Shown here: one piece after another, positions 920 to 51,116 of the stretch
How positions within the stretch are numbered: position 1 is the first letter of the stretch
Layout of the letters: each line of letters starts with the position of its first letter
Source: Desulfurococcales archaeon
Lineage (GTDB): Archaea > Thermoproteota > Thermoprotei_A > Sulfolobales > NBVN01
Assembly (NCBI GenBank): GCA_023255965.1
Contig: JAGDWE010000009.1
Location: 1-55,513 of the forward strand
Length of the DNA stretch: 55,513 nucleotides
Reading direction: 5' to 3'
Program-made: the position numbers and the translations under genes
The notes under the pieces: generated by a model
The model's database searches: none
The model's input: only the letters and a program-made list of their open reading frames with translations
What the model was told of the DNA's origin: nothing

Positions 920-1765
920 TCATTCTCGGCGCGCTACCTTATCGCGAAGGGCGTTCATGAAGTTAATTAAGAACTCATCGATTGATGCGGGAGCTCCCTT
1001 GCTCTCCAACGAGTTAATTAGTAAGCCACATAAGTTAGTACCGCTTTTATCAAGTACTCTAAGATATATTTCGGAGATACATAGATTGTTCAACTCTGTT
1101 AATGCCTCTATCATCTCTAATCTCTGCCTCATAATCCGTGCTAATTCAGCCGTATACGCAAGTACTAGGATATCTACTAAGCACTCTAAATTCTCAAACT
1201 TAAGTAAAGACCTAATCACATTCTTACTGCTGCTTACGATATTGAAAATCGCCTTCTTAATTAACTCCTTAATTCCCGCAACGTTTCTTAGGTAATGCAA
1301 ATGCTTTAATTCATCTATTAATTCATCTATATTAATTCCATAATTCATCAACCATTTATTCACGCCTTCAAGCTCCGTAATTGCTTCCCCTAGGGCACTC
1401 CATCCACTTGATAAATTGATACTTAATTCAGTAAGTGCTGTAATTAATGAGTTAAAAGCCTTAGATATTAAGGGGATTAAGTGGCTAAGGGTTTCAACTA
1501 CGGAGGCATAGTTGATCCTTAACTCTACAACTCTACATACATCCCTAATTAGATTCATGTAGGGTTCTGAGGCGCTGACCCTTAGCTCCTTTCCATCAAC
1601 TATAAGTAGTAGTTCATTACCTACGAGTTCAATTCTCCTTATGGACTCGATACTGACATCGCTTACTATATTACCCTCTAAGCTATACACCAGCAATTTA
1701 TTGTTCAATATAGAGATACTACATTGAATTACCTCCCCATCTAAGTAGCATCTAGCTAGTACCAC
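920..1765 (-). CDS. Unknown protein with PH-like N-terminal domain and helical C-terminus
   Basis: I do not recognise a named family. The 281-aa product begins with about 75 residues of alternating beta strands closed by one amphipathic helix (SEPYMNLIRDVCRVVEL), a pattern like PH/GRAM-type domains. The remaining ~200 residues are almost entirely helical with heptad-like leucine spacing. There is no signal peptide or membrane segment. The GTG start lies inside the preceding gene (14-nt overlap), so it is almost certainly co-translated with the polytopic protein encoded there. The overlap suggests a cytoplasmic partner of that membrane protein. The PH comparison rests on a strand pattern read by eye and is an inference. 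Confidence 0.65.
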   Translation of the reverse strand: MVLARCYLDGEVIQCSISILNNKLLVYSLEGNIVSDVSIESIRRIELVGNELLLIVDGKELRVSASEPYMNLIRDVCRVVELRINYASVVETLSHLIPLISKAFNSLITALTELSINLSSGWSALGEAITELEGVNKWLMNYGINIDELIDELKHLHYLRNVAGIKELIKKAIFNIVSSSKNVIRSLLKFENLECLVDILVLAYTAELARIMRQRLEMIEALTELNNLCISEIYLRVLDKSGTNLCGLLINSLESKGAPASIDEFLINFMNALRDKVARRE

Positions 1766-3914
1766 TTAATTCCCTCTTAATGACTCTACCATCATAAACA
1801 ACGCCCCCTCTACTACTTAAATATATGCTTAGAAGCCAGCTAAGTACGTTACTCGGTAGAGGTATTTCATCGACATTAATGGAACCATCTATAGAGAGCC
1901 TATCATCAAGGTATTTAATAAAGAGAGATAAATACTTCGCTCTCTTAATGGTAATGTCGATTAGCTTAACATATCCAAGTAACTCACTTAGAGGCTTCAA
2001 TTTACTATTCACTAGGTACTCCACCAATTCCCTGCAAGGTCTATCGATGTAAGTCAGCAATTCATTAACAGCAGCACTTACATCGCTTTTACGTGTTGTG
2101 AGGTAATCTAATTTAATGTCCTTAAGATCGATTAAATTACTCATCTCCAATTCCCTAACATGGACTTCGTTATTAACTGCATCTAAGAACCTAGTCAAAT
2201 TATCTCTCAACGCCATACATACCTCCCTAATATTGAATAACGCTCTAATCGGAGTTACCCCGAACTCTGGCAACACCTTAAATGTTTCACGTAGGTTGTT
2301 TAGAGCGGTTAATACTTCCGAACTACTCATGTCCTTGAACGAATTAATCAACGCCTCTAAATCCCTGCCTAACTTAGTTAAATTGCTGTAGGTGGTCATC
2401 ACCTCATCTTTAAATTCACTATGTACCTTATCGATGAATTCCATGTAGATCTTAATGACGTCGAGCATGACCAAATCCTCAGAGCACTTTATCGGCGCAT
2501 TAACGCTATATGCTTCCTTCCCCAGGACCTCGCGATAATATGTTGATATAACGCTTAATACATTTCCGCATAAGTCGCATAATCTCTTTAGTACTTTCTT
2601 TAATTTAAGTAATGCATCGGGCAACGCCTCTAAATCATTAACTCCCTCTAAGTGTTTAAGCATGTCCGATACATGGCTATCCATCAACCCTGAGGTAAGT
2701 GCGATGCTATTGTATAAATTCTTAACATCATTAACTAAGCTCGCGAATTTATTTAATAAAGAATTCTTAATGCTATTTAAGGACTTACTTAATTCGGTAT
2801 CTAACCTGTTTAATACTTCATTGATGCGTCTAGCTGTTGTCAAGGACTTACTTAATTCCCAACTAATGTTGTCTAATTCCTTAGAGATTTTAGTTAATGA
2901 ATCCTTAACCTCGTTAATGCTTAGCCTCGTTGAGGCGTCGCTAACTTCCTCAATAACTGAGGCATATAAATTTAAATCGCTTCTTAAGCTATTAATCATC
3001 GACATAGCCTTAGATCTCAGTACGTTCGATCTTGTTAGCATTTCATTAAAGGCATTAAGTAGGGCGAATATCGATGCAGTTAAAGGCACAACCACTAAGT
3101 ACCCATAGCGGGTTGCCTGCGGAACTGAAATGACGTTTTGAGAAACTATAACCACGGTTAATACGGCCGCCACGCATAGTACGTACGATGTAGCGGTACG
3201 AATTAGTATGTCCCTAAGCCCATAGGCTTCCGGTAAGAACCTCTTTTTAATGAGTAAGTACATGCAACCTACTAAGGTGTATATAAGTATTATCGACATG
3301 AAGAACATAGCAGGCTTTAATTCAAAGCCAGGTAACATGTAGGTCATATTAAGCATGCTTATATTTGGTACGAACTTGATGTTGGTTATTAGGAGGGGTA
3401 GGATTAGGTAGGGCGCATATATAGACATTAATGATACGGCATATATTATTAAATCCTCTAGACTATTAGACAACACTATATAAGCAGCTATTAAGGCTGG
3501 TGAGGCATAACCCGTAGGATCTAACATAGCCACTGGTAGTGATGCAATTATAAGTATATGGGGCACTATAAAGCCATGTCGCTGTCTCATTACTAAGAAT
3601 GCTGGGATGAAATTAGTTGCCGATATTGCCGCCAATATTAATGAAATGTAGTATGGATCTAATGGACTTCTAAATGCCACTCCTGATACGCTATAACCGA
3701 AGATAAGAGCTACAGATAACGAAATGTACGATAATGCTACACTCTTCCTTATATCTTGGGAGAAAATGTAAAAGTAGGTGATTATCAATATGACAGCATA
3801 TGCTGTGGAAAACAACATTAGCTGAGCCGTACTTATGCCTCCGCTTAATACGTATAGTAGTAGCTCAAACACCAAGACAAATACTATTAGCTGCAGCAGC
3901 TCTATAAATCTCAC
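1752..3914 (-). CDS. Polytopic membrane protein with long cytoplasmic coiled-coil domain
   Basis: The product is 720 aa. Residues 1-290 contain about eight hydrophobic segments, the first at residues 5-24. Residues from about 295 to the end form a soluble domain dominated by long helices with repeated Leu/Ile heptads and many Asn, Ser and Lys residues (for example DSLTKISKELDNISWELSKS), consistent with coiled coil. No enzyme motif is visible. The GTG start overlaps the stop of the upstream gene by four bases, and its own end overlaps the downstream gene by 14, so the three genes form one translational unit. The layout (membrane anchor plus large coiled-coil platform) suits a scaffold or membrane-shaping protein; that role is inferred. 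No family recognised. Confidence 0.75.
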   Translation of the reverse strand: MRFIELLQLIVFVLVFELLLYVLSGGISTAQLMLFSTAYAVILIITYFYIFSQDIRKSVALSYISLSVALIFGYSVSGVAFRSPLDPYYISLILAAISATNFIPAFLVMRQRHGFIVPHILIIASLPVAMLDPTGYASPALIAAYIVLSNSLEDLIIYAVSLMSIYAPYLILPLLITNIKFVPNISMLNMTYMLPGFELKPAMFFMSIILIYTLVGCMYLLIKKRFLPEAYGLRDILIRTATSYVLCVAAVLTVVIVSQNVISVPQATRYGYLVVVPLTASIFALLNAFNEMLTRSNVLRSKAMSMINSLRSDLNLYASVIEEVSDASTRLSINEVKDSLTKISKELDNISWELSKSLTTARRINEVLNRLDTELSKSLNSIKNSLLNKFASLVNDVKNLYNSIALTSGLMDSHVSDMLKHLEGVNDLEALPDALLKLKKVLKRLCDLCGNVLSVISTYYREVLGKEAYSVNAPIKCSEDLVMLDVIKIYMEFIDKVHSEFKDEVMTTYSNLTKLGRDLEALINSFKDMSSSEVLTALNNLRETFKVLPEFGVTPIRALFNIREVCMALRDNLTRFLDAVNNEVHVRELEMSNLIDLKDIKLDYLTTRKSDVSAAVNELLTYIDRPCRELVEYLVNSKLKPLSELLGYVKLIDITIKRAKYLSLFIKYLDDRLSIDGSINVDEIPLPSNVLSWLLSIYLSSRGGVVYDGRVIKRELSGTS

Positions 3915-4885
3915 TTAAGGCCCACCATATATGTCAATTTATCGACATTTATATGTAGACGAAGCTCTCCAGATACATCATATATCTTATGGATGTACCT
4001 CCTGAGGGATTTAATTAAGTGCCCTCTGGGCTCTATGGTTATTACCATGGATTCGTATTGGCCCTTAATCTCCGAAATCCTAATTAAGTCCCTAGATATC
4101 CTTCTAAAGGCCTCAGAATCAACATGTAGAATAAGATCCTTGGTTATAAGGAGTAATGATTCATTAATGTAGGGCTCATAATCGCCTATCAAGTGATGTA
4201 AGAATTTAATGGTATTCACTAAATTCCCAAAGACCTCTAACTCAATGCCGGGAAAACATAAAATCATACCTAATTTACCATAGGCGTCTAGGTAAGTACT
4301 AATCTCACTATAGTTGTCTAATAATGCATTAATACACGATCTTAAGGGATCTATGCCTTTAATTAGCCTCAAATACGTGAATAATTTATCGCTCGTAACT
4401 AATATCGAGTTACTAAGTCCCCCCTCAAGAACCATGGCGATGTAGATTAAGGCATTTAAGGCATCATTATCACTTAACATGCTCGGAAGCCTCATTAAAG
4501 TAAGTACATTACATCTACTATTCAAATCTTTAACTTCCTTAAGCAACTCATACGTTACATATAGGCTATACGGTTCGGTGCTGATTATCACCAAGGCATT
4601 CATGATATCGCTAATGATGTGCGGCTTAACTTTATTAATCGAATCAATTATGAGATGGTTCTTGGAAAGATTGATCCATAGGCCATCTAAATTAAGCTTA
4701 GGTAATGTAATTACGTTACCCTCATTTGGTGTTACGTTATCTAACAATATATATAATGTACTACTACCTAGGCGATCTCTTAAAACCCTATACTCATCTA
4801 AGGATGAGGTTATTACGACATTAACATACGACTTAACATCAGTGGAATCTATTAGGCGAAATAATCTGTCTAGATACTGACTCAT
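3911..4885 (-). CDS. Divergent tubulin/FtsZ-fold protein candidate lacking GTPase loops
   Basis: A longer frame opens at 4909. I prefer the ATG at 4885 because GGTGATG lies just upstream of it; this gives about 324 aa. The strand/helix order follows FtsZ closely. A VNVVIT strand is followed by LYILLDN, then ALVIIST where FtsZ has its T4-loop strand, then CNVLTLMRLP (compare LTVAVVTLPF), then NSILVTSDKLF (compare DTLVVIPNEKLF). A long helix follows, then KLGMILCFPG, YINESLLLITKDLIL and YESMVITIEPRG, which match the order of the C-terminal domain. The glycine-rich GGGTGTG loop is replaced by STEPYSL and the T7 loop is degenerate, so GTP hydrolysis is unlikely. It is the first gene of a three-gene operon. 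The fold call is made by eye and is unproven; the gene itself is solid. Confidence 0.6.
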   Translation of the reverse strand: MSQYLDRLFRLIDSTDVKSYVNVVITSSLDEYRVLRDRLGSSTLYILLDNVTPNEGNVITLPKLNLDGLWINLSKNHLIIDSINKVKPHIISDIMNALVIISTEPYSLYVTYELLKEVKDLNSRCNVLTLMRLPSMLSDNDALNALIYIAMVLEGGLSNSILVTSDKLFTYLRLIKGIDPLRSCINALLDNYSEISTYLDAYGKLGMILCFPGIELEVFGNLVNTIKFLHHLIGDYEPYINESLLLITKDLILHVDSEAFRRISRDLIRISEIKGQYESMVITIEPRGHLIKSLRRYIHKIYDVSGELRLHINVDKLTYMVGLK

Positions 4886-5037
4886 CAACATCACCATTAA
4901 ATAATTCAATAATACATTAATAACTCCACATCCTTATTTTTCCTCTAAATGCTTTTATTACTTAGATGTGTGATGCATTCCTAAAACACGATAATGCTTA
5001 AGAGTATACGATCTACTATCTAAATTAGATGATGAGG

Positions 5038-5064: not shown

Positions 5065-5745
5065 ATGCAACCGCCTGATTTCTTAGACAAGTTAATGGCG
5101 CTCTATGAAAGGCTCAGCAAAAGGCATTGCATCAACCTAGATGATGTAGGGGTGTATGAGGTAATTAATTACCTGCTTGAAAACGGTGTATTACATAGAG
5201 GCCTTAACCGTGAGTTATGCGTTAAATCTAGGGTTAAGTTCGCCTTAGAGTTAATTAGATTAGGTAGTGATGTAGAGAGGGTAGCCCTCTCACTCGACTG
5301 GCGGGATTTTGAGGAATTAATTAGCGAGTGCTTAATCATGAATAATTATCTAATCATTAAGAACCTTAGGTTCGGGGTTAAGAGGAATGAGGTAGACGTT
5401 ATTGGCGTTAATACGGCATCATCCATCGCTGTCGTAGTGGACTGCAAACATTGGAGTCCAGGATACAGTAAGAAAGGGAAGTTAATTAGTGTATGCCGTG
5501 AACATAGACGTAAGGTTGAGGAATTAAGTAGCCAATGTTCATCGCTTATGGGCACGTACTTACAGTTAGCTAAAGCCAAGTACTTAATACCAGTGGTAGT
5601 GACATTAACTGACGTAATACGTGGATACTTTAACGGGGTATTTATAGTGCCCATATATAGATTTAATGACTACATAGTAAATATCAATTACTATGTAGAA
5701 TTGCTGGGCAGGTCTGAGTTGGTAAGGAATAAGTGTTTTAGCTGA
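5065..5745 (+). CDS. Mrr/RecB-like restriction endonuclease-fold protein
   Basis: The product is 226 aa and soluble. The segment WRDFEELISECL (79-90) is the typical entry helix of the Mrr-type catalytic domain. It is followed by NEVDVIG (108-114) with the catalytic Asp111 and VVDCKHW (124-130) with Asp126 and Lys128, giving a PD-(D/E)xK arrangement. The N-terminal ~75 residues are helical and could bind DNA. No methyltransferase lies beside it, so it is not an obvious restriction-modification system. A role in DNA repair or in defence against foreign DNA is possible. The start is uncertain: ATG 5065 is used, ATG 5095 is an alternative. Confidence 0.7.
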   Translation: MQPPDFLDKLMALYERLSKRHCINLDDVGVYEVINYLLENGVLHRGLNRELCVKSRVKFALELIRLGSDVERVALSLDWRDFEELISECLIMNNYLIIKNLRFGVKRNEVDVIGVNTASSIAVVVDCKHWSPGYSKKGKLISVCREHRRKVEELSSQCSSLMGTYLQLAKAKYLIPVVVTLTDVIRGYFNGVFIVPIYRFNDYIVNINYYVELLGRSELVRNKCFS

Positions 5746-6032: not shown

Positions 6033-7205
6033 ATGGTTATTGAGGTATTGTTGGCGGTATTAGTTGCTGAGTTAATCATTTACTTGCTGAGTAACTATCA
6101 TAAGGGGTTCTCGGCAAGGATTAGGAGGACCGGCTTAAACGTAGGTCTATTTACGTTAATGATCGATGTGGGCAAGTTTGCTGGGCTTAAGGTTAGGAGG
6201 TTTAATACCGTGAGTCGCATAGTGGGATTCGTAGGGATAGCTAACCTCATATCTTTAATAGCGTTATTTTACTGGATTGCTATTCCGTCCCTACTTAACA
6301 TAATTAAGTCCGTGACCTCCGCCGGCGTAGTAGGTGAGTCCCCCTTCGTCCCAGTGGTGCCTGGGGTTACGATTAAGGGCCTAAGCATCATCTACTTCCT
6401 CTTAAGCATAGCGATAGCCATAGTCGCACACGAACTATCCCACGCATTAATAGCGATTAACGAAGGCATTGAGGTCCAATCATGGGGGTTAGGGATTTTC
6501 CTGATATTTCCATTCGCATATGTTAGAATCGATGATGAATCATTTAATAAAGCATCACTGTCGAGTAAGGTTAGGGTACTATCGGCCGGCATACTATCTA
6601 ATACCGCGCTAGCCATAGTCGTTCTCCTATTAATGAACTACGTATCTGGGATCCTATATCAGCATATAGCGGTAGTCATATGCGGTTTAGATCGTAGCCT
6701 AGGTCCAGACGCGCCAGCTATATTAGCTAATATACCCGTTCCTTCAGTGATTAACAGCATTAACGGTACTCCGATTAAGATATTAAGTGATTTGAGGAGC
6801 TATTTGATTTCTATAGCTAATAAATCAACGTCGCTTGTGCTGAACGTATCTAAATTTAATTACCTCATAGACGACTCGATAGTTGACTCCATAGACGGTT
6901 ATCAATTAATCGAAGTATATAAGCCCTCATACTATCCTAGGCTAGGTATCTTAGTCGTTGAAGCATATCTACCATCAGTCCCTAAGGAGCTATATTACCT
7001 AGCTAGGGCCTTCTTCTGGATATACCTCGTAAACATAAGCCTAGCAGTGTTTAATGCAGCCCCATTAATTATAACTGACGGAGGTAGGATAATAGATGAA
7101 TTCCTTAGGAAGTACGGCCTACGTAAGGTCAGTAATGTTATTCAGGCATTAACCATAATAATTGTAGTCGTATTACTTATTACTGGTTTTGTGAACTTCA
7201 TTTAG
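6033..7205 (+). CDS. Site-2 protease family zinc metalloprotease (M50)
   Basis: This is a polytopic intramembrane protease, 390 aa. HELSH at residues 133-137 supplies two zinc ligands and the catalytic glutamate. The distal NAAPLIITDGG segment near residue 349 supplies the third ligand Asp (the usual motif is LDG). Hydrophobic segments surround both motifs. Between them, about residues 210-300 form a soluble PDZ-like insert (PSVINSINGTPIKILSDL resembles the PDZ carboxylate-binding start). The family cuts membrane-bound substrates such as anti-sigma-like regulators or signal-peptide remnants; the archaeal substrate is unknown. The 3' end overlaps the convergent aldolase gene by 8 bp. Confidence 0.88.
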   Translation: MVIEVLLAVLVAELIIYLLSNYHKGFSARIRRTGLNVGLFTLMIDVGKFAGLKVRRFNTVSRIVGFVGIANLISLIALFYWIAIPSLLNIIKSVTSAGVVGESPFVPVVPGVTIKGLSIIYFLLSIAIAIVAHELSHALIAINEGIEVQSWGLGIFLIFPFAYVRIDDESFNKASLSSKVRVLSAGILSNTALAIVVLLLMNYVSGILYQHIAVVICGLDRSLGPDAPAILANIPVPSVINSINGTPIKILSDLRSYLISIANKSTSLVLNVSKFNYLIDDSIVDSIDGYQLIEVYKPSYYPRLGILVVEAYLPSVPKELYYLARAFFWIYLVNISLAVFNAAPLIITDGGRIIDEFLRKYGLRKVSNVIQALTIIIVVVLLITGFVNFI

Positions 7206-42302: not shown

Positions 42303-42851
42303 ATGCACATCATAGTGATTTCCGACACTCACGATAATCTAGCAATGATAGATAGATCTTCATCGTTGATCTTTAAATTAGATCCAGAAATGATTATACA
42401 TTTAGGCGATTACGTATCCCCATTTACGTTGAGGAAGATATTGGATTTAGGTATAAAGTTCTTGGGAGTCTTCGGTAATAATGATGGTGATAAGTTATTA
42501 TTGAAGTTTACCTTGGGAGGTCGAGGCGAGCTTCATGAACCTCCCTACGAATTATCTATTGATGGACTAAAATTCTTATTAATCCATGGATTCGGAAGTC
42601 GTGAGTTAACTAACAAGTTAGTTAACTCCATAGCATCGGGAGGTGAGTACGATTTACTGTTATATGGTCATACTCATATACCTAGACTTGAGAAAGTAGG
42701 GAATACGGTAATATTAAATCCCGGAACTCTATCAGGATACTTAAGTGAGCTCCCGACCTTGGCTTACATCGATACAAGAGAATTAATTCCTAGAATTTTA
42801 AATGCATTAACTGGGGATCAGATTAAATATATCAAAATGCACGATACTTAA
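42303..42851 (+). CDS. YfcE/MJ0936-type metallophosphoesterase
   Basis: From the preferred ATG at 42303 the protein is 182 aa (TTG 42285 would add six residues). Metal-binding motifs are ISDTHDN, HLGDYV, GNNDG, LIHGF and YGHTHIP, all in order. Members hydrolyse phosphodiesters; the physiological substrate is unknown. It is convergent with the pilus operon, with a 4-bp overlap. Confidence 0.9.
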   Translation: MHIIVISDTHDNLAMIDRSSSLIFKLDPEMIIHLGDYVSPFTLRKILDLGIKFLGVFGNNDGDKLLLKFTLGGRGELHEPPYELSIDGLKFLLIHGFGSRELTNKLVNSIASGGEYDLLLYGHTHIPRLEKVGNTVILNPGTLSGYLSELPTLAYIDTRELIPRILNALTGDQIKYIKMHDT

Positions 42852-44581
42852 ATCTCGTGGTCAAGTTTGATCGGTATAGGTCTGGGGTCGGGCAGTATAC
42901 GTATTAATGCATCCCCCTTACTAAGTAATAACGTATAGTCCTTAATCTCTTCATAAGATATCCTCATATAGTTTGATAATTCCTTCCAGTAAAGGATGTC
43001 CGGCGATGGTAATGCTATAAATAAACCTATATTCTCTATGAGGTCCTTACCTAATTCGCCTAAGTCGTTAAGGGATTGCGTAGCCAGCGCTATTGAGATC
43101 CCATAACCCCTACCTAACTTAATTAACTTAATCAGTAATGGGACCTTATTAAACATGAATTGCCACGCCTCATCAATAACCACCTGAACCCTAGGTATAT
43201 GGCTTTCTCTAACCGTGTTCATATAAAGTAAGTTAATAACGTTAAAGAATGCGGCTACACTTAAATTTAGGTAATCTACGCCTAATGCACTAATATGCGA
43301 TAAATTAATTACCGTAATTGATTCTGAACTGCTTAATGCCTCAATAAGCGGTGGATCACATTCTAGCGTTTCTATGGTGTTAAATATACGCATTAATCTG
43401 TACTGAACATACTCATCATCAATACCTAATGTTAGATCCTTAGCAACCTCCCAGAAATTACTCAAGACCTCGTCCTGGAGTTCTGACGCCTCGCTAAGCA
43501 CCTTAAATAATGACGCCGTTAGCTCTCTGTCACCTTTTAAAATCATCGAATCACTTATTAATTCTGTGAGGAAAGCTGCCCTCAAGTTCTTAGGTATGTA
43601 TTTTAGTAAATCAACTATGCCTAGACCGATACTTACGCCCAGGTCAACTACCCAAGGCTTAAAACCCTTCATCAACAGCCTACCAACATACTCATTTTTA
43701 ACGTCAACGATGAACACCTTAGTTGAGTACGTAAGGTAAGTTCTCAGCAGTAGCGTTATTAAAGTCTCAGTCTTACCTATGCCTGAAGGACCTAGAACTA
43801 ATACGTGCGGGTTAAGGCAATTACCTATATTCCAGAAGATTTCCTCAGATGTAATTATATTATATCCTAGGTAAATTCCCTGGCTTCTTAGGTCAAATCT
43901 AGTCCTCGCATTTATTATGTGAGGGGCGAATAATGCTAATGTTGGTGATGCCATCTTAAAGGAGTACCTTAGCCTAAGTAATTTAGTAAGTATTAAATTA
44001 ACGAGCCTAGGTGGAAAACCTCGAAAAAATATGTGAAGTAATGCCATACCTTCAATGCCCTTTAGCTCAGAAGTAACTATGCCCAAGGATCCTAGGGTCT
44101 TCATAAGTAAATCCGCCCTAGAATTCAACGCGTTCACCACTTCGTCCTCAGAGGTACCACATGCTTCTACAGAGTAAAATACAATTAAATCGAATGGTTG
44201 TAGGCCATGCTTAGCTATTTTATCCCTAAGCTTACTGAGCTTCTCTAATTCCGTCTTAGCCTTAATGTTATTAGGGTTTACCTCAAGATCTATTAATAAG
44301 CTTTGAATCTTCTTATTTAACTCAGAGACAACTTTCTCCTTGCTTAATGGGGTAAATATCGATTTGATCTCTATAGGGAAGCCTAAATTCATGGAATTAA
44401 AGTATGTTTTTAAGTACTTTACTACTTCGTGATCGCTTAAGTCATTTATGGAAGTAACTACCTTATTTACCTTAATTACTTTCCTACCGCATAATTCGTT
44501 ATCTGGCCTACGAAACAGTATTATACCATTATTTAACACCTTAACTTCTTTTAAGCCTAAGTCTAGTACTGAGGCCTTCAT
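42848..44581 (-). CDS. HerA/VirB4-like ATPase of the pilus operon
   Basis: About 577 aa from ATG 44581 (a TTG at 44590 is an alternative that would overlap the previous gene). The N-terminal ~250 residues form the conjugation-type accessory domain. Walker A is GPSGIGKTET near residue 266, Walker B VQVVIDEAWQF near 465, followed by the RGYGISIALATQSL sensor region. These are features of HerA/VirB4/TraG motors, including the crenarchaeal DNA-exchange ATPases CedB and TedB. It is the last gene of a five-gene operon with a Tad-type pilus core. A role in DNA or protein transport is inferred. Confidence 0.8.
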   Translation of the reverse strand: MKASVLDLGLKEVKVLNNGIILFRRPDNELCGRKVIKVNKVVTSINDLSDHEVVKYLKTYFNSMNLGFPIEIKSIFTPLSKEKVVSELNKKIQSLLIDLEVNPNNIKAKTELEKLSKLRDKIAKHGLQPFDLIVFYSVEACGTSEDEVVNALNSRADLLMKTLGSLGIVTSELKGIEGMALLHIFFRGFPPRLVNLILTKLLRLRYSFKMASPTLALFAPHIINARTRFDLRSQGIYLGYNIITSEEIFWNIGNCLNPHVLVLGPSGIGKTETLITLLLRTYLTYSTKVFIVDVKNEYVGRLLMKGFKPWVVDLGVSIGLGIVDLLKYIPKNLRAAFLTELISDSMILKGDRELTASLFKVLSEASELQDEVLSNFWEVAKDLTLGIDDEYVQYRLMRIFNTIETLECDPPLIEALSSSESITVINLSHISALGVDYLNLSVAAFFNVINLLYMNTVRESHIPRVQVVIDEAWQFMFNKVPLLIKLIKLGRGYGISIALATQSLNDLGELGKDLIENIGLFIALPSPDILYWKELSNYMRISYEEIKDYTLLLSKGDALIRILPDPRPIPIKLDHEI

Positions 44582-44583
44582 AT

Positions 44584-46944
44584 CTACCAATTAATAATTA
44601 GGTTTTTAAGATGTAACGCAACACCGCACGCTAATTCCAGGCACTTTCTAAGTATCTCGCTATATTTAATCACGTATACATCCCTTACCCCGTTACCTAA
44701 TACTATTACCACTATATCATTAACTAAGTTATTTAAATCCAAAGATATCTCCCCAGCAAGCCCCTTAGATACATATGCGGCATTACCCACTAATGCTATT
44801 AAGGTGCTATCGTTCAAGAACTCATATATTAGTTTGATCTTAACTCCTTCAGATGTAATTGAGGGAACTAATAGTAGCTTCCTCAAGGGATTTACTTCGC
44901 TTATCTTTAGCTTAATTTCGTTGTCTACAAACCCATTAACGCACTTACGAATCAAATCCACCTTGACATTTAATTCGTTACTCGACTTAACATCAATAAG
45001 CACCAAATTGCTGCTATTAATTAATTGGCGCTTCACCCAGTGAAATGCGCCAATGCCGTAGCTGAATTCGAGAACTGCTGGAAGGCTACATTCCTCAATC
45101 ACTACGCTATTAATACCATTAAATTTCCTGCCATCTGCGCATGTAACTTGCACGCTAACGGGTATTTCCTTGTTAACAGAGTTGGTGAGGGTAAGCTTAT
45201 ACCTACATTCGTCTATGTACTCTAACGAATATGATATTATGCTGTAGGGATCGTTTATTAGATGTTCAGTAAGGTCTATGGTATATGCGGCGAGTACTTC
45301 GCTGCGATTAATCCATTCATACTCGATGAGCAATTGCAGGGTATTACTAAAAATCCGTAGCGAGTCCTCTAACTCTAACTCATTACGTCCAGGTCTAAGA
45401 ATATGTGAACGGGATTTAACTATTTGATTTCCTTCAACGTAATTTATAATTACCTTTAATTCCTCAGGCAAAGGATTGTATATTGATAGAAAGTACTTGA
45501 TGAGTAAGTTATCATCGCCATTATATAGCCTTCCATTGATTGAGTACTTAACTTCATTAATCTTCAAATCCAGGACTTCAGGCCTATTCACCATCACCTT
45601 AAAGATATTTGAGTACTTCGTTAGCATAAAGTCGATTATAGCCTTAAAACTGATTTCAACGCCCAGCTTAATAGGCTTTATGCTGTATTCCTTAATTAGG
45701 TCGTTATCTAGTGGGTTGCTTAGTAAGATTATAGGACCCTTAATAATTAACTGTGAAGGCTTACTCCACGGCATTATAACTAACCTCGGGTATCCCATGC
45801 TAGAATTAGCTTCTATACCCACGTATAGATCCCTTAAGTCCGTTAGATCGTAAATTAATACCTTACCTTCATACACACATACTAAGGCATCATTGATTAT
45901 ACTGCAATCCATCAATTTATATGATGCCATGTGGGCATTAACACTAAAGAGCTCTAGCGAGTTAGGAGTGCGGAATGCGATGTAGTTGGTTCCTACACTT
46001 CCATCAATAACCCTGAGGTCGCTAATTAACCTCCAAATGTTATTATTGAGTATGTAGGGGCGACTATTTAGTATAATAATCAATTCACCGCCAGGGAGGT
46101 AGCCTACAACCCTTGGACTGACGGCAAATATTAAAGGCCTTAACTCCTTTCCATTGAATTCCATGAGTAGGTTATGTTGCTGACTATGAAGCAAGTATCT
46201 ACCGCCGATATCTACTAACGGGAACGCATTAAGCGGTATCCTTAATAAATTGTTGAAAGATATTAAGTAAGATCCCTCAACGCAATTGATGAATCCAAGG
46301 CAATCACCTACTAGCACATCATTAACTTCATGACACTTACTTAACTCATACAGCTTATGTATATTTAAGTTCTTATGATTCAATAACGCAAATAACTTCC
46401 TATCACGTTTGAAGACGAGCAACGATGTAGTTTTTGATTCATAATATCTAACGTAATCTACCTCGATAGGTGATTTCCTGATCAAAGGTGATATTAGGTA
46501 CTTAGTTCCATTACTCTTCGTTAGAACCAGTGATGGACCATAGAAACCCTCCACGGCAACACCTTTAAATGATTTAAGGATCCATTCCTCCTCATTAGAG
46601 CGTAGGTCGTATAGCGACACGCCATCACTATATACGTTTATCAACATATCATTATATGCGAAGTAAGTCTTAGCGTAAAACCTTAATAATGATCCGTCAC
46701 CGAGAATTACCTTAGATGAGTCGCCTTCATGAAGGATCCATAATCCGCTAATGTATGTAGTTAAATTATCATTAATTACTAGCTTAGGCACTTCGGCAAA
46801 GCTCCTAAGATAAGGCTTAATTATTATCTTATTAAAGCTCATACTCTTTAATAAAAGCCACCTACTAAGCGCTCTATCATCTACGTATTGATTTTTAAAG
46901 TAATCACGTAGATCCAAGTGATGCTTAAGGATAGGGAGCTTCAT
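44584..46944 (-). CDS. Large probable beta-propeller protein of the pilus operon
   Basis: The product is 786 aa with no signal peptide or clear membrane helix. Residues ~45-400 contain repeated four-strand units with YDL-like turns (VYSDGVSLYDLRSNEEEWIL, VCVYEGKVLIYDLTDLRDLY), suggesting a WD40/PQQ-type propeller. Residues ~430-760 are beta-sandwich-like. I recognise no named family. It lies between the TadC-like gene (4-bp gap) and the VirB4-like ATPase gene, so it is probably a cytoplasmic adaptor of this machine. The function is unknown. Confidence 0.65.
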   Translation of the reverse strand: MKLPILKHHLDLRDYFKNQYVDDRALSRWLLLKSMSFNKIIIKPYLRSFAEVPKLVINDNLTTYISGLWILHEGDSSKVILGDGSLLRFYAKTYFAYNDMLINVYSDGVSLYDLRSNEEEWILKSFKGVAVEGFYGPSLVLTKSNGTKYLISPLIRKSPIEVDYVRYYESKTTSLLVFKRDRKLFALLNHKNLNIHKLYELSKCHEVNDVLVGDCLGFINCVEGSYLISFNNLLRIPLNAFPLVDIGGRYLLHSQQHNLLMEFNGKELRPLIFAVSPRVVGYLPGGELIIILNSRPYILNNNIWRLISDLRVIDGSVGTNYIAFRTPNSLELFSVNAHMASYKLMDCSIINDALVCVYEGKVLIYDLTDLRDLYVGIEANSSMGYPRLVIMPWSKPSQLIIKGPIILLSNPLDNDLIKEYSIKPIKLGVEISFKAIIDFMLTKYSNIFKVMVNRPEVLDLKINEVKYSINGRLYNGDDNLLIKYFLSIYNPLPEELKVIINYVEGNQIVKSRSHILRPGRNELELEDSLRIFSNTLQLLIEYEWINRSEVLAAYTIDLTEHLINDPYSIISYSLEYIDECRYKLTLTNSVNKEIPVSVQVTCADGRKFNGINSVVIEECSLPAVLEFSYGIGAFHWVKRQLINSSNLVLIDVKSSNELNVKVDLIRKCVNGFVDNEIKLKISEVNPLRKLLLVPSITSEGVKIKLIYEFLNDSTLIALVGNAAYVSKGLAGEISLDLNNLVNDIVVIVLGNGVRDVYVIKYSEILRKCLELACGVALHLKNLIINW

Positions 46945-48452: not shown

Positions 48453-51116
48453 TCAAATCCTATTTGAAGTTATATCCTTATTAGGAGAATTAAAACCCCT
48501 GACTTTAACGCTCTTCCTAAATAACTCCTCCTCTGTAACTTCATCACCAAACGTGTATAGATTATTTAATACTATACTGTCAGTTTCCTCATCATATATC
48601 GGTTCATCAACGCTAACTACAGCTCTTTTAAGGCTCTTACCATGGTATACGTAATTAACTGTTATGAAGGTCCAGAACATGCTTACCTGATACGGGCTTA
48701 AATTTATCGGAGGCCCTGTAAGCCTCATCAATGCCTCCTTAACGTTCCCCCCATGAAATGTTGTATTATGTGTTAGTATGAGGGACCCTGATATAGCATA
48801 GATATGTGTTTCAGGTACCTCAATATCGTAGAGAAGGCTTTCCTTCTCCACTACTTCTACCTTCTTCACCCTTAATAGCAGGAGTTTTCCTCTCAACCCT
48901 TTATCATGCTTTGGCTTTCCATGCATCTTAATGTTCGCATAATTCATGTAAGCGATATTATCTACATTATCTAGGAGGTCGAGGATTTCAAATGCCTTTT
49001 GCTCGTATTCACCTCCACGGATATGAATGAGGTATGTAGCACCTCCGTTTACAGAGCATCCACGTTTCCTCAGACGAACATCTGCAACTATTCCTAAGCT
49101 CCTTAATATGAGATATAAGCTTTCAGCAAGCCTTCTATTAGCGGTCTTTACTGTAATACCACTGCCCTTCCTTGTACGAATGGCACCTGCATCGAAATAT
49201 CCCTCAATTATACCTACTCTAAAATCCTCAGGCGCTCTAAGAGCTAAATCCAGCGGTACACATCTATTGTGCTCATGTACCCTACCATCCAGTAACCCCA
49301 CCAGGAACCTCGTGAAAATCGATGAGCGAATGAGAATGCGAGCAACATTACCACTATCATAGATAGAGATCGCGTCCTTTAGCCCTAGTTCCTCCAAGGC
49401 ATGTAATATCTTCTTTTGCTTCCATGAAGCGTCTACACTCATATTGAACGTTACTCTGACGGGGATCCCATACTCGTCATGCTCTACATCACCACTTACG
49501 AGGAAGGACCCTATGAGATAGCCTAGATCCTTGCTTAACTTTACTATATATGGGAAGGGGGGTTCTTGACTAGATGTGTTAGCATGGATTACGAGGTCCT
49601 TAAGCTTACGCCCATCGTATTCCCTCCCCCTTAAGATCGCATCTGCATCCTTAGCAGACATGCATTTACTTTGAGTCTCACTTTTATCACAGATTACCAA
49701 AGATCTCTTGTAGTCGTCTTCTAAGTAATCCATTGTTATTACGTAGCGCATAGTTGTCGGGCCAAGCTGTGGAGGATGAGGAAGTGATATGAGTATGTCC
49801 CCAGGTTTAAGATCTTTTGCAGGTTTTGTAATAGATTTCCCTTTCTCGTACACTATGACCGAATGTTCCTCATGAACTTCGTGAACAACTCCCCCACTAA
49901 CATGTATTCTTACAAACCTACGGCTACCGTCCTTGATTATCGCCCTCGATATAGGTACCCATCTGGCAACTCCTTTCACGTCCCCAGTAACAACCTCCAC
50001 GTGTTTATACTTCCCATTAATCACACCCTCAACTACGTCGCCAATTTCATATAGATCTACTTTACCATCGACTTTTGCAAGGACAAGCTGATCCTTAGGT
50101 AAGCATAGTCCGCCTAAGCCCATGTTCATTGCTTGAACTAATACCTGAGCTTCGCTCCCCCTAGTCTCACCTATTACTATGTATCTACTTACCGATGCCC
50201 TTAGTGCTGCCTTAGATAACGTAAATTGATCTAAGAAATTATTTGGGACGGTTGATGTAGGCACTATATACCTAACCCAGTTACTCTTAGGCGGTGGATC
50301 GATCTCAGGAGTGTCTTCTATAATGACTATCTTCCAGGTCTGTGGTATGCATTCGTACAGTATCGCCCTAAGTAATGTCGTTTTACCCGAGCCCGGAGGC
50401 CCTAAAATTACTATACTACCCCTCGATCTGATCACGGCATTTATGTACTTAACTAAAGCTCTAGGCAAAGTTCCCTCACTAATTAACGAATTTAAACTTA
50501 TGCCGCCATAGTTTCTCTTCTTCCTAATGGTTATCTCAGGTCTATCTAAGCTTACCTCAGGTAGCACTAAGTGCACCCTATGACCTCCATCTACATCAGG
50601 GAGGTTGGCATCCAAAATGGGGTATGACTTAGATATTATCTTACCCGCCTTCTCCGAAAATAAATTGATATACCTAAGGACTTCCTCAACATCGCTTAAA
50701 ACTATATTCGTAGGTATATAATCAGCCTCCGGATCAATTCTTAAGACCTTACTATGTCTAACCCATATAGGGCCGGGACCTACGACTGTTATATCTTCAA
50801 TGTAGGGATCATCAATTAATACTTGGAACTTCTTATACTTAAGTTCCTTCCTTAGTACATAAAGGACGCTTATGAAATCTTCATTACTAATGCCCAAGAC
50901 CTCTGAAACAGCCTTAGATAATATTAAATCATTTAATTCGCAATTATATGGTATTGAGGTAAGTATCTTATCCATATTCCTAAGGACTAACTCCTCAACG
51001 TCCTTGCCCAGGAATTCCTCAACAACGTATTGATAGCTATTACCGTACTTAATTATCTTGATGTTAGATATGCCTACATTATATTCATCAATAACCTCAG
51101 CCTTGAGCCCGGTCAT
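48453..51116 (-). CDS. Tad/VirB11-type pilus assembly ATPase with an intein
   Basis: An 887-aa precursor; the spliced ATPase is 440 aa. The N-terminal region is followed by GPPGSGKT (Walker A, 239-246), the Asp box IIEDTPEID and YIVIGETRG (Walker B, 312-320). The signature QAMNMGLGGL is interrupted at residue 337 and resumes TTFHGGNVKEAL at 785. Without the intein the sequence reads like other archaeal secretion ATPases. It drives pilin polymerisation or secretion at the membrane. The pilin-like gene lies 35 bp upstream. Confidence 0.92.
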   Translation of the reverse strand: MTGLKAEVIDEYNVGISNIKIIKYGNSYQYVVEEFLGKDVEELVLRNMDKILTSIPYNCELNDLILSKAVSEVLGISNEDFISVLYVLRKELKYKKFQVLIDDPYIEDITVVGPGPIWVRHSKVLRIDPEADYIPTNIVLSDVEEVLRYINLFSEKAGKIISKSYPILDANLPDVDGGHRVHLVLPEVSLDRPEITIRKKRNYGGISLNSLISEGTLPRALVKYINAVIRSRGSIVILGPPGSGKTTLLRAILYECIPQTWKIVIIEDTPEIDPPPKSNWVRYIVPTSTVPNNFLDQFTLSKAALRASVSRYIVIGETRGSEAQVLVQAMNMGLGGLCLPKDQLVLAKVDGKVDLYEIGDVVEGVINGKYKHVEVVTGDVKGVARWVPISRAIIKDGSRRFVRIHVSGGVVHEVHEEHSVIVYEKGKSITKPAKDLKPGDILISLPHPPQLGPTTMRYVITMDYLEDDYKRSLVICDKSETQSKCMSAKDADAILRGREYDGRKLKDLVIHANTSSQEPPFPYIVKLSKDLGYLIGSFLVSGDVEHDEYGIPVRVTFNMSVDASWKQKKILHALEELGLKDAISIYDSGNVARILIRSSIFTRFLVGLLDGRVHEHNRCVPLDLALRAPEDFRVGIIEGYFDAGAIRTRKGSGITVKTANRRLAESLYLILRSLGIVADVRLRKRGCSVNGGATYLIHIRGGEYEQKAFEILDLLDNVDNIAYMNYANIKMHGKPKHDKGLRGKLLLLRVKKVEVVEKESLLYDIEVPETHIYAISGSLILTHNTTFHGGNVKEALMRLTGPPINLSPYQVSMFWTFITVNYVYHGKSLKRAVVSVDEPIYDEETDSIVLNNLYTFGDEVTEEELFRKSVKVRGFNSPNKDITSNRI
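48765..50105 (-). mobile_element. Intein with LAGLIDADG-type homing endonuclease
   Basis: Residues 338-784 of the ATPase (447 aa). It begins CLPKDQLVLAKVDG with Cys1 and ends ILTHN before +1 Thr, with the penultimate His intact. Block B is VHEEHSVIV, where the usual Thr is replaced by His. The endonuclease motifs are LGYLIGSFLVSG (~530) and GIIEGYFDAGA (~636), with acidic residues present, so homing may still work. It sits in the conserved TTxH block of the ATPase active site. Euryarchaeal KlbA homologues are known to carry inteins in the same region. Confidence 0.93.

Follow-up and report, generated by a model that had tools for sequence, protein, structure and literature searches.

To our knowledge, the crenarchaea are usually described as being without tubulin-family proteins, apart from rare genes for FtsZl1. 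In the original description, FtsZl1 stands at the centre of a system predicted to remodel membranes, together with a vWA protein, a GTPase and lineage-specific genes, one crenarchaeal FtsZl1—SSO1376 from Sulfolobus—having N-terminal transmembrane (TM) helices and a transposon insertion (Makarova and Koonin 2010; PMC2875224). The homologues of FtsZ have further been reported to be absent from the close TACK lineages, except for two Sulfolobales possessing FtsZl1 and the Culexarchaeia described there (PMC9723716). The present analysis concerns three adjacent genes, designated here A, B and C, from a stretch of 55,513 nucleotides (hereafter the window; contig JAGDWE010000009.1 of the assembly GCA_023255965.1 of a Desulfurococcales archaeon). 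Their products, i.e. a predicted tubulin-fold protein without the GTP-binding motif, a polytopic membrane protein and a protein with a predicted PH-like domain, are homologous to proteins encoded next to FtsZl1 in other families of the same order.

The window represents one contig of a 1.22-Mb draft genome with a completeness of 79.9%. Its source organism is a member of the family of Zestosphaera tikiterensis—the genus being placed by NCBI in the Desulfurococcales—and not of the Thermoproteales, among which an earlier note, made from the sequence of the window alone, had sought its relatives. By open reading frame (ORF) reading, all three genes lie co-directionally in the order A-B-C on the minus strand, to which all the coordinates given below for parts of the trio likewise refer: gene A at 3911–4885 (324 amino acids, aa), gene B at 1752–3914 (720 aa) and gene C at 920–1765 (281 aa). 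The overlaps of 4 nt between A and B (A ending at 3911, B starting at 3914) and of 14 nt between B and C (B ending at 1752, C starting at 1765), as well as the lack of an assignable enzyme motif, had both been stated in the earlier note and agree with the coordinates and with the searches in Pfam, NCBIfam and PADLOC, respectively. In these databases, A and C have no family match, B exhibits weak coiled-coil matches only, and no enzyme motif was found in A, B or C; the candidates ATG17, EzrA, arcadin-4, LeoA and LmuB for B were rejected, since the coiled-coil matches are weak and, wherever a curated cut-off exists, fall short of it.

Homology of the trio to genes of FtsZl1 operons

The profile of B matched ORFs of ~700–860 aa in other families of the order via its C-terminal part. 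Most of the B matches outside the Zestosphaera family involved a generic helical, coil region and were discarded, only the C-terminal ones leading to operons. In the locus L197 (genome G206), these genes form a run of five, encoding a bitopic protein, FtsZl1 (875 aa), a protein of 325 aa, a membrane protein of 808 aa and a further protein of 283 aa, which corresponds to the order bitopic-FtsZl1-A-B-C. The bitopic protein of this locus consists of a signal peptide, an extracellular part, a TM helix and a short helical tail. The homologues of A, B and C beside the gene for the FtsZl1 GTPase outside the Zestosphaera family will be designated, respectively, as A′, B′ and C′. The ~330-aa A-like gene is inverted in the operons of the family f3, and it is positioned after B′ in the genomes of f11 (loci L168, L169 and L189), which, judging in part from the interrupted FtsZl1 of G136, are probably Sulfolobaceae, and in L170. 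In the last four loci, A′ starts with a zinc-ribbon-like motif of four cysteines, C..GH...C..CG (L169:7476–8507, L168:7383–8393, L170:5016–6089 and L189:2971–4002), that is missing from A of the Zestosphaera family. The FtsZl1 proteins of the operons have kept both GxGG(T/A)G and GGGTGSG, and both PF13809 and PF00091 match them. Where FtsZl1 is present, it is accompanied by an A-like protein that has no GTP motif. A search of the literature found no later work on the operon of FtsZl1 with A′, B′ and C′; some of these accessory genes may be listed, without function, in the supplement of the original description (PMC2875224).

The relatedness of the two sets was evaluated by profile-profile comparisons, with 40 column-shuffled profiles and with reversed profiles as controls. 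The E-values were 4e-25 for B and B′, 7.7e-5 for A and A′, 1e-5 for C and C′, and 1.4e-8 between two groups of A′, the scores (in the order B–B′, A–A′, C–C′ and A′–A′) being 214, 40.8, 46.0 and 66.0 versus shuffled maxima of 17.9, 19.9, 18.2 and 20.6. Since the reversed profiles scored 70, 15.2, 16.0 and 21.1, a composition effect is seen for B only, and the observed score of B is far above it. The comparison of A with the zinc-ribbon group of A′ is weak (score of 22.7 versus a null maximum of 18.2). Because the three genes are homologous to genes beside FtsZl1, the trio shares its ancestry with the known membrane system of FtsZl1, having arisen from a relative of it. The direct comparison of the profiles of A and FtsZl1 gave no alignment, and A is therefore not a recent derivative of FtsZl1.

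Among 214 genomes of the order, the profiles of full-length FtsZl1 and of B′ point to the same nine genomes outside the Zestosphaera family (G003, G014, G025, G035, G026, G206, G125, G223 and G226). It should be pointed out that six of these nine contributed to both profiles, so that the independent agreement consists in no other genome of the order having one without the other; in G026, the two genes are located on different contigs. Within the Zestosphaera family, FtsZl1 was found in none of the 31 genomes with either PF13809 or an order-specific full-length profile (A12), the matches of the latter being weak helical segments only, and no homologue of the bitopic protein is present near the trio.

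Several further observations concern FtsZl1 genes. In the genome G125, which consists of a single contig, two separate ORFs (L168:2514–5170) make up the FtsZl1 of the five-gene operon, owing to either a sequencing error or a real break. A second type of FtsZl1 operon (L187, L188 and L190 in G223, G050 and G046, respectively) contains an FtsZl1 of 880–1050 aa followed by a helical protein of 695–830 aa, the FtsZl1 of L188 and L190 having N-terminal hydrophobic helices, and G136 (L193) has an interrupted gene for FtsZl1, like the one reported for SSO1376. A third type (L191, L196 and L198 in G125, G199 and G016, respectively), with 920–980 aa and a vWA-like gene nearby—in L191 also a P-loop GTPase-like gene—resembles the classical FtsZl1 system described by Makarova and Koonin.

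Gene A: a tubulin fold without the GTP motif

A model of A was obtained with AlphaFold2 from 12 family sequences without templates, with a predicted local distance difference test (pLDDT) of 82 and a predicted template modelling score (pTM) of 0.86. With this model, the best match in Foldseek was CetZ (3zid; E-value of 2.3e-9), followed by tubulins, and VIA-align yielded a Z-score of 19.6 (~19–20) over 297–300 aligned residues with a root-mean-square deviation (rmsd) of 4.3–4.5 Å and ~10% identity. A is thus predicted to adopt the fold of the tubulin superfamily, with the nucleotide-binding domain, the central helix and the second domain. In a comparison with viral proteins, the seven matches with E-values ≤ 1e-3 ranked first, those bearing a name being FtsZ/tubulin-like or uncharacterised. 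A search of the PDB sequences with A or A′ gave no useful match.

With regard to nucleotide binding, the T4-loop position of A (4553–4600; residues 98–113 of the 326-aa form) carries approximately ALVIISTEPYSLYVTY in place of GGGTGSG. The signature GGGTG(S/T)G was found in none of the 21 A homologues, which have neither a GG.TG motif anywhere nor a GG at the T4 position; A is without the T1 and T4 glycine motifs and matches neither PF00091 nor PF13809, the former model matching none of the 31 family genomes. In the region of the pocket, W72 is the sole near-constant residue, and it is lost in the genus g5; after the predicted helix H7, where the catalytic T7 loop would lie, no conserved acidic/Asn pattern was seen in the alignment, the loop boundaries being uncertain. 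It is because the GTP motif is gone that A remains invisible to the sequence models. The protein, described in the earlier note as FtsZ-like, is so with respect to its predicted fold and not to its GTP-binding motif, and is best called a pseudo-tubulin.

The start of gene A at 4885 (MSQYLDRL...) is favoured because the relatives begin with the same MS..LDRL pattern (MSSNLDRL...); the alternative longer starts at 4891 and 4909, the latter giving the longer ORF, are possible.

Genes B and C

The N-terminal part of B (3048–3899; residues 6–289) contains by simple hydropathy ~9 candidate TM helices, i.e. one more than the eight counted previously; the B orthologues have 6–10 such candidates, four of five distant relatives having nine. 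It is followed by a strongly helical region of ~426 residues (1755–3032; residues 295–720) with a mean local power peak at a period of 3.6 and with 1.9% proline, within which Cys446 and Cys477 are invariant in the Zestosphaera family. The former description of B as a membrane anchor with a coiled coil of ~400 residues thus stands for the membrane protein and its extended helical region, the latter being a putative coiled coil. The C-terminal stretch (1815–1937; residues 660–700) carries the sequence DEIPL in the window and, in most cases, the ELPF type; this D/E-hydrophobic-P-hydrophobic motif is common to B′ of the FtsZl1 operons according to both the joint alignment and the matches of the profiles A7 and A10. 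A weak charge bias and the partners without signal peptides suggest that the helical part may be cytosolic.

For C, the AlphaFold2 model (pLDDT of 90.6, pTM of 0.84) comprises seven strands and a helix followed by a helical bundle. Its first 84 residues (1514–1765), with the near-invariant Cys6 and Cys15, are predicted to form a seven-stranded PH barrel with a C-terminal capping helix, residues 2–82 matching in VIA many PH, PTB and FERM-F3 domains (Z-scores of 9–9.9, rmsd of ~2 Å, 74–80 residues). These agree with the PH-like start already suspected for C. Foldseek gave no match with an E-value below 0.001, although PH/PTB domains were listed with probabilities near 1.

Conservation in the Zestosphaera family

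The trio is conserved together in the relatives, as the genome-context check proposed in the earlier note was to establish: by locus reading, the genes occur in the order A-B-C in 20 genomes, while in another four the trio is interrupted by the end of a contig. The operon is thus present in 24 of the 31 family genomes and in all the 11 near-complete ones, the profile of C matching 25 of 31 and 11 of 11, respectively, with a few of the matches being weak. In the genus g5, B is too diverged for the first profile, yet a membrane protein of ~690 aa is encoded between A and C; an improved profile, built with g5 sequences, finds B in the g5 genomes outside its build (G073 and G132), where A and C flank B, too. 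The spacing in 20 orthologous loci, the window not counted, is -17 to +6 nt between A and B and -76 to +7 nt between B and C, with one exception of +234 nt in the latter. The identity to the proteins of the window falls to about 13–20% in distant genera, and the trio proteins change faster than those of the neighbouring housekeeping genes. For the pairs compared, the ratio of nonsynonymous to synonymous substitution rates (dN/dS) of 0.07–0.29 indicates purifying selection on all three genes and, together with the tight recurring spacing, shows that they are not chance ORFs.

Beyond the family, the profile of A had no convincing match in 398 genomes of the phylum, and the first contig scan with A gave no match. 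The weak matches of A outside the family were not supported, the one in G013 (L028) turning out to be an ATPase of an ABC transporter.

Cdv genes and neighbouring genes

The genome to which the window belongs carries a complete operon cdvA-cdvB-cdvC at another locus (contig C76; L221:1522–4303). Its CdvA matches PF18822 with an E-value of 1.7e-34, CdvB possesses a winged-helix-like C-terminal part and CdvC is Vps4-like with an MIT domain; a second ESCRT-III-like gene is found in the same genome (L222:1951–2646). The trio has no Pfam match to the families of CdvA, CdvB and CdvC. Since cdvA, cdvB and cdvC are present, the trio does not stand in for Cdv, and the link to missing Cdv genes suggested previously is not supported.

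With regard to the surroundings of the trio, it is adjoined by a gene for a HAD-family phosphatase (158–841), which is located near the trio in several other genera of the family, too, in variable position and orientation. On the other side, genes for a protein with a NERD/Mrr-like nuclease domain (5065–5745) and for a site-2 protease (6033–7205) are divergent from it, this pair recurring near the trio in several genomes of the family. A search with the site-2 protease retrieved 17 loci, including one of Zestosphaera tikiterensis NZ3 (contig NBVN01000004.1), the others being labelled as Desulfurococcales, Desulfurococcaceae or Sulfolobales archaea. Elsewhere in the window, a gene for a type II/IV secretion ATPase (48453–51116) contains an in-frame intein with a LAGLIDADG homing-endonuclease domain and belongs to a pilus-like locus that also encodes a HerA-like ATPase (42848–44590).

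Discussion

On balance, it seems somewhat probable that the trio is an accessory membrane module of the crenarchaeal FtsZl1 system that was kept after the loss of the GTPase and now serves as a nucleotide-free tubulin-fold scaffold. A, B and C would assemble into a single complex on the inside of the membrane, in which B would act as the anchor holding out a long helical stalk, while A and C, having no signal peptide, would bind that stalk, probably near its C-terminal ELPF-type motif. In the relatives, such a complex may tether or regulate the FtsZl1 filaments, connecting them to the bitopic protein with its extracellular domain. In the Zestosphaera family, with the GTPase gone and no bitopic protein near the trio, A would act as a nucleotide-free structural subunit or adaptor, and the complex could be a static membrane scaffold—related to shape, a membrane domain or vesicles—alongside the Cdv-based division.

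Several points weigh against this interpretation. The comparison of B with B′ is partly inflated by helical composition (70 reversed versus 214 observed), the link between A and A′ is moderate (62% in hhalign), and that between A and the Sulfolobaceae-type A′ (profile A9) is weak directly (1.3%), depending on the link between the profiles A8 and A9 (95.5%); the tubulin fold of A′ is assumed. The fold, the operon, the homology and the non-detection of FtsZl1 are computational observations, the absence of FtsZl1 from the family relying on profiles in draft genomes; from these we infer the formation of the complex, the orientation of B and the function, as well as the direction of change, i.e. 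a loss of FtsZl1 in the Zestosphaera family rather than a gain elsewhere.

It has also been considered whether A continues to assemble into cytomotive filaments, with another nucleotide or with GTP in a remodelled pocket, so that the trio would be a full cytoskeleton with A as the engine replacing FtsZl1. The retention of the complete tubulin fold, with both domains, over ~300 residues and the maintenance of the trio where FtsZl1 is absent are in line with this idea, which is nevertheless unlikely: the T4 loop has neither a conserved residue pattern nor a GG in any homologue, W72 is lost in g5, and a motif-less A-like protein coexists with FtsZl1, which makes A look like an accessory rather than a substitute. 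There is similarly little probability that the trio is a platform for secretion or membrane-protein quality control without any cytoskeleton, the tubulin fold being a mere adaptor and the link to the site-2 protease and nuclease-like genes a functional one. B is indeed polytopic, and the protease gene lies less than 10 kb from the trio in many genomes of the family, but the spacing and orientation of both neighbours vary, and the exact co-occurrence with FtsZl1 in the relatives also speaks against such a role. A membrane tether working in cell division with the Cdv/ESCRT ring would fit the presence of the trio in every near-complete genome of the family, as expected of a core function, and it is plausible as such that ESCRT-III polymers have a membrane anchor. 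However, most other families of the order, which divide with Cdv, gave no match to the trio, and in the genome studied here the trio and the cdv genes are unlinked, so that this role has to be regarded as quite improbable.

A whole archaeal family could have kept a tubulin-fold cytoskeletal module while discarding every GTP-binding tubulin, with nucleotide-free pseudo-tubulins polymerising or forming a scaffold on a membrane stalk without GTP, a possibility that we put forward tentatively and with considerable doubt. In A, the predicted tubulin fold belongs to the core genes of a crenarchaeal family. A five-gene operon of FtsZl1 in the order is also defined here—for a bitopic protein, FtsZl1, a pseudo-tubulin-like protein, a membrane scaffold and a PH-like adaptor—and, since it occurs partly in apparent Sulfolobaceae, where genetics may be possible, the long-open question of the crenarchaeal role of FtsZl1 can now be put to the test. 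A pseudo-tubulin next to an active tubulin may, moreover, represent a natural model for the origin of tubulin-fold regulators.

Comparison with known systems

The CdvABC system is likewise membrane-associated, and CdvA, with its small beta domain and helices, superficially resembles C; the beta domain of C, however, matches PH-like folds, and cdvABC are separate genes at another locus. With the PH/PTB-like domains, C shares the predicted seven strands plus helix, but it has no sequence match to them, and a helical bundle of ~200 residues follows the domain. As far as the superfamily of CetZ, FtsZ and tubulin is concerned, A has in its model the two-domain fold, whereas it differs by the low identity of ~10%, the absence of the T1 and T4 glycine motifs and the lack of a match to PF00091 or PF13809. 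The FtsZl1 (PF13809, Tubulin_2) system differs from the trio of the Zestosphaera family, which has no detectable FtsZl1 gene and in whose neighbourhood ORF reading showed neither a vWA or OmpA protein nor a kinase or GTPase as a partner; SSO1376 possesses N-terminal TM helices, whereas FtsZl1 of the five-gene operon is without them. Both are, on the other hand, predicted as membrane-associated multiprotein systems. The statement of the earlier note that no known system has this set of genes needs qualifying, since nine genomes of the order combine homologues of A, B and C with an FtsZl1 that is full-length and has an intact GGGTGSG.

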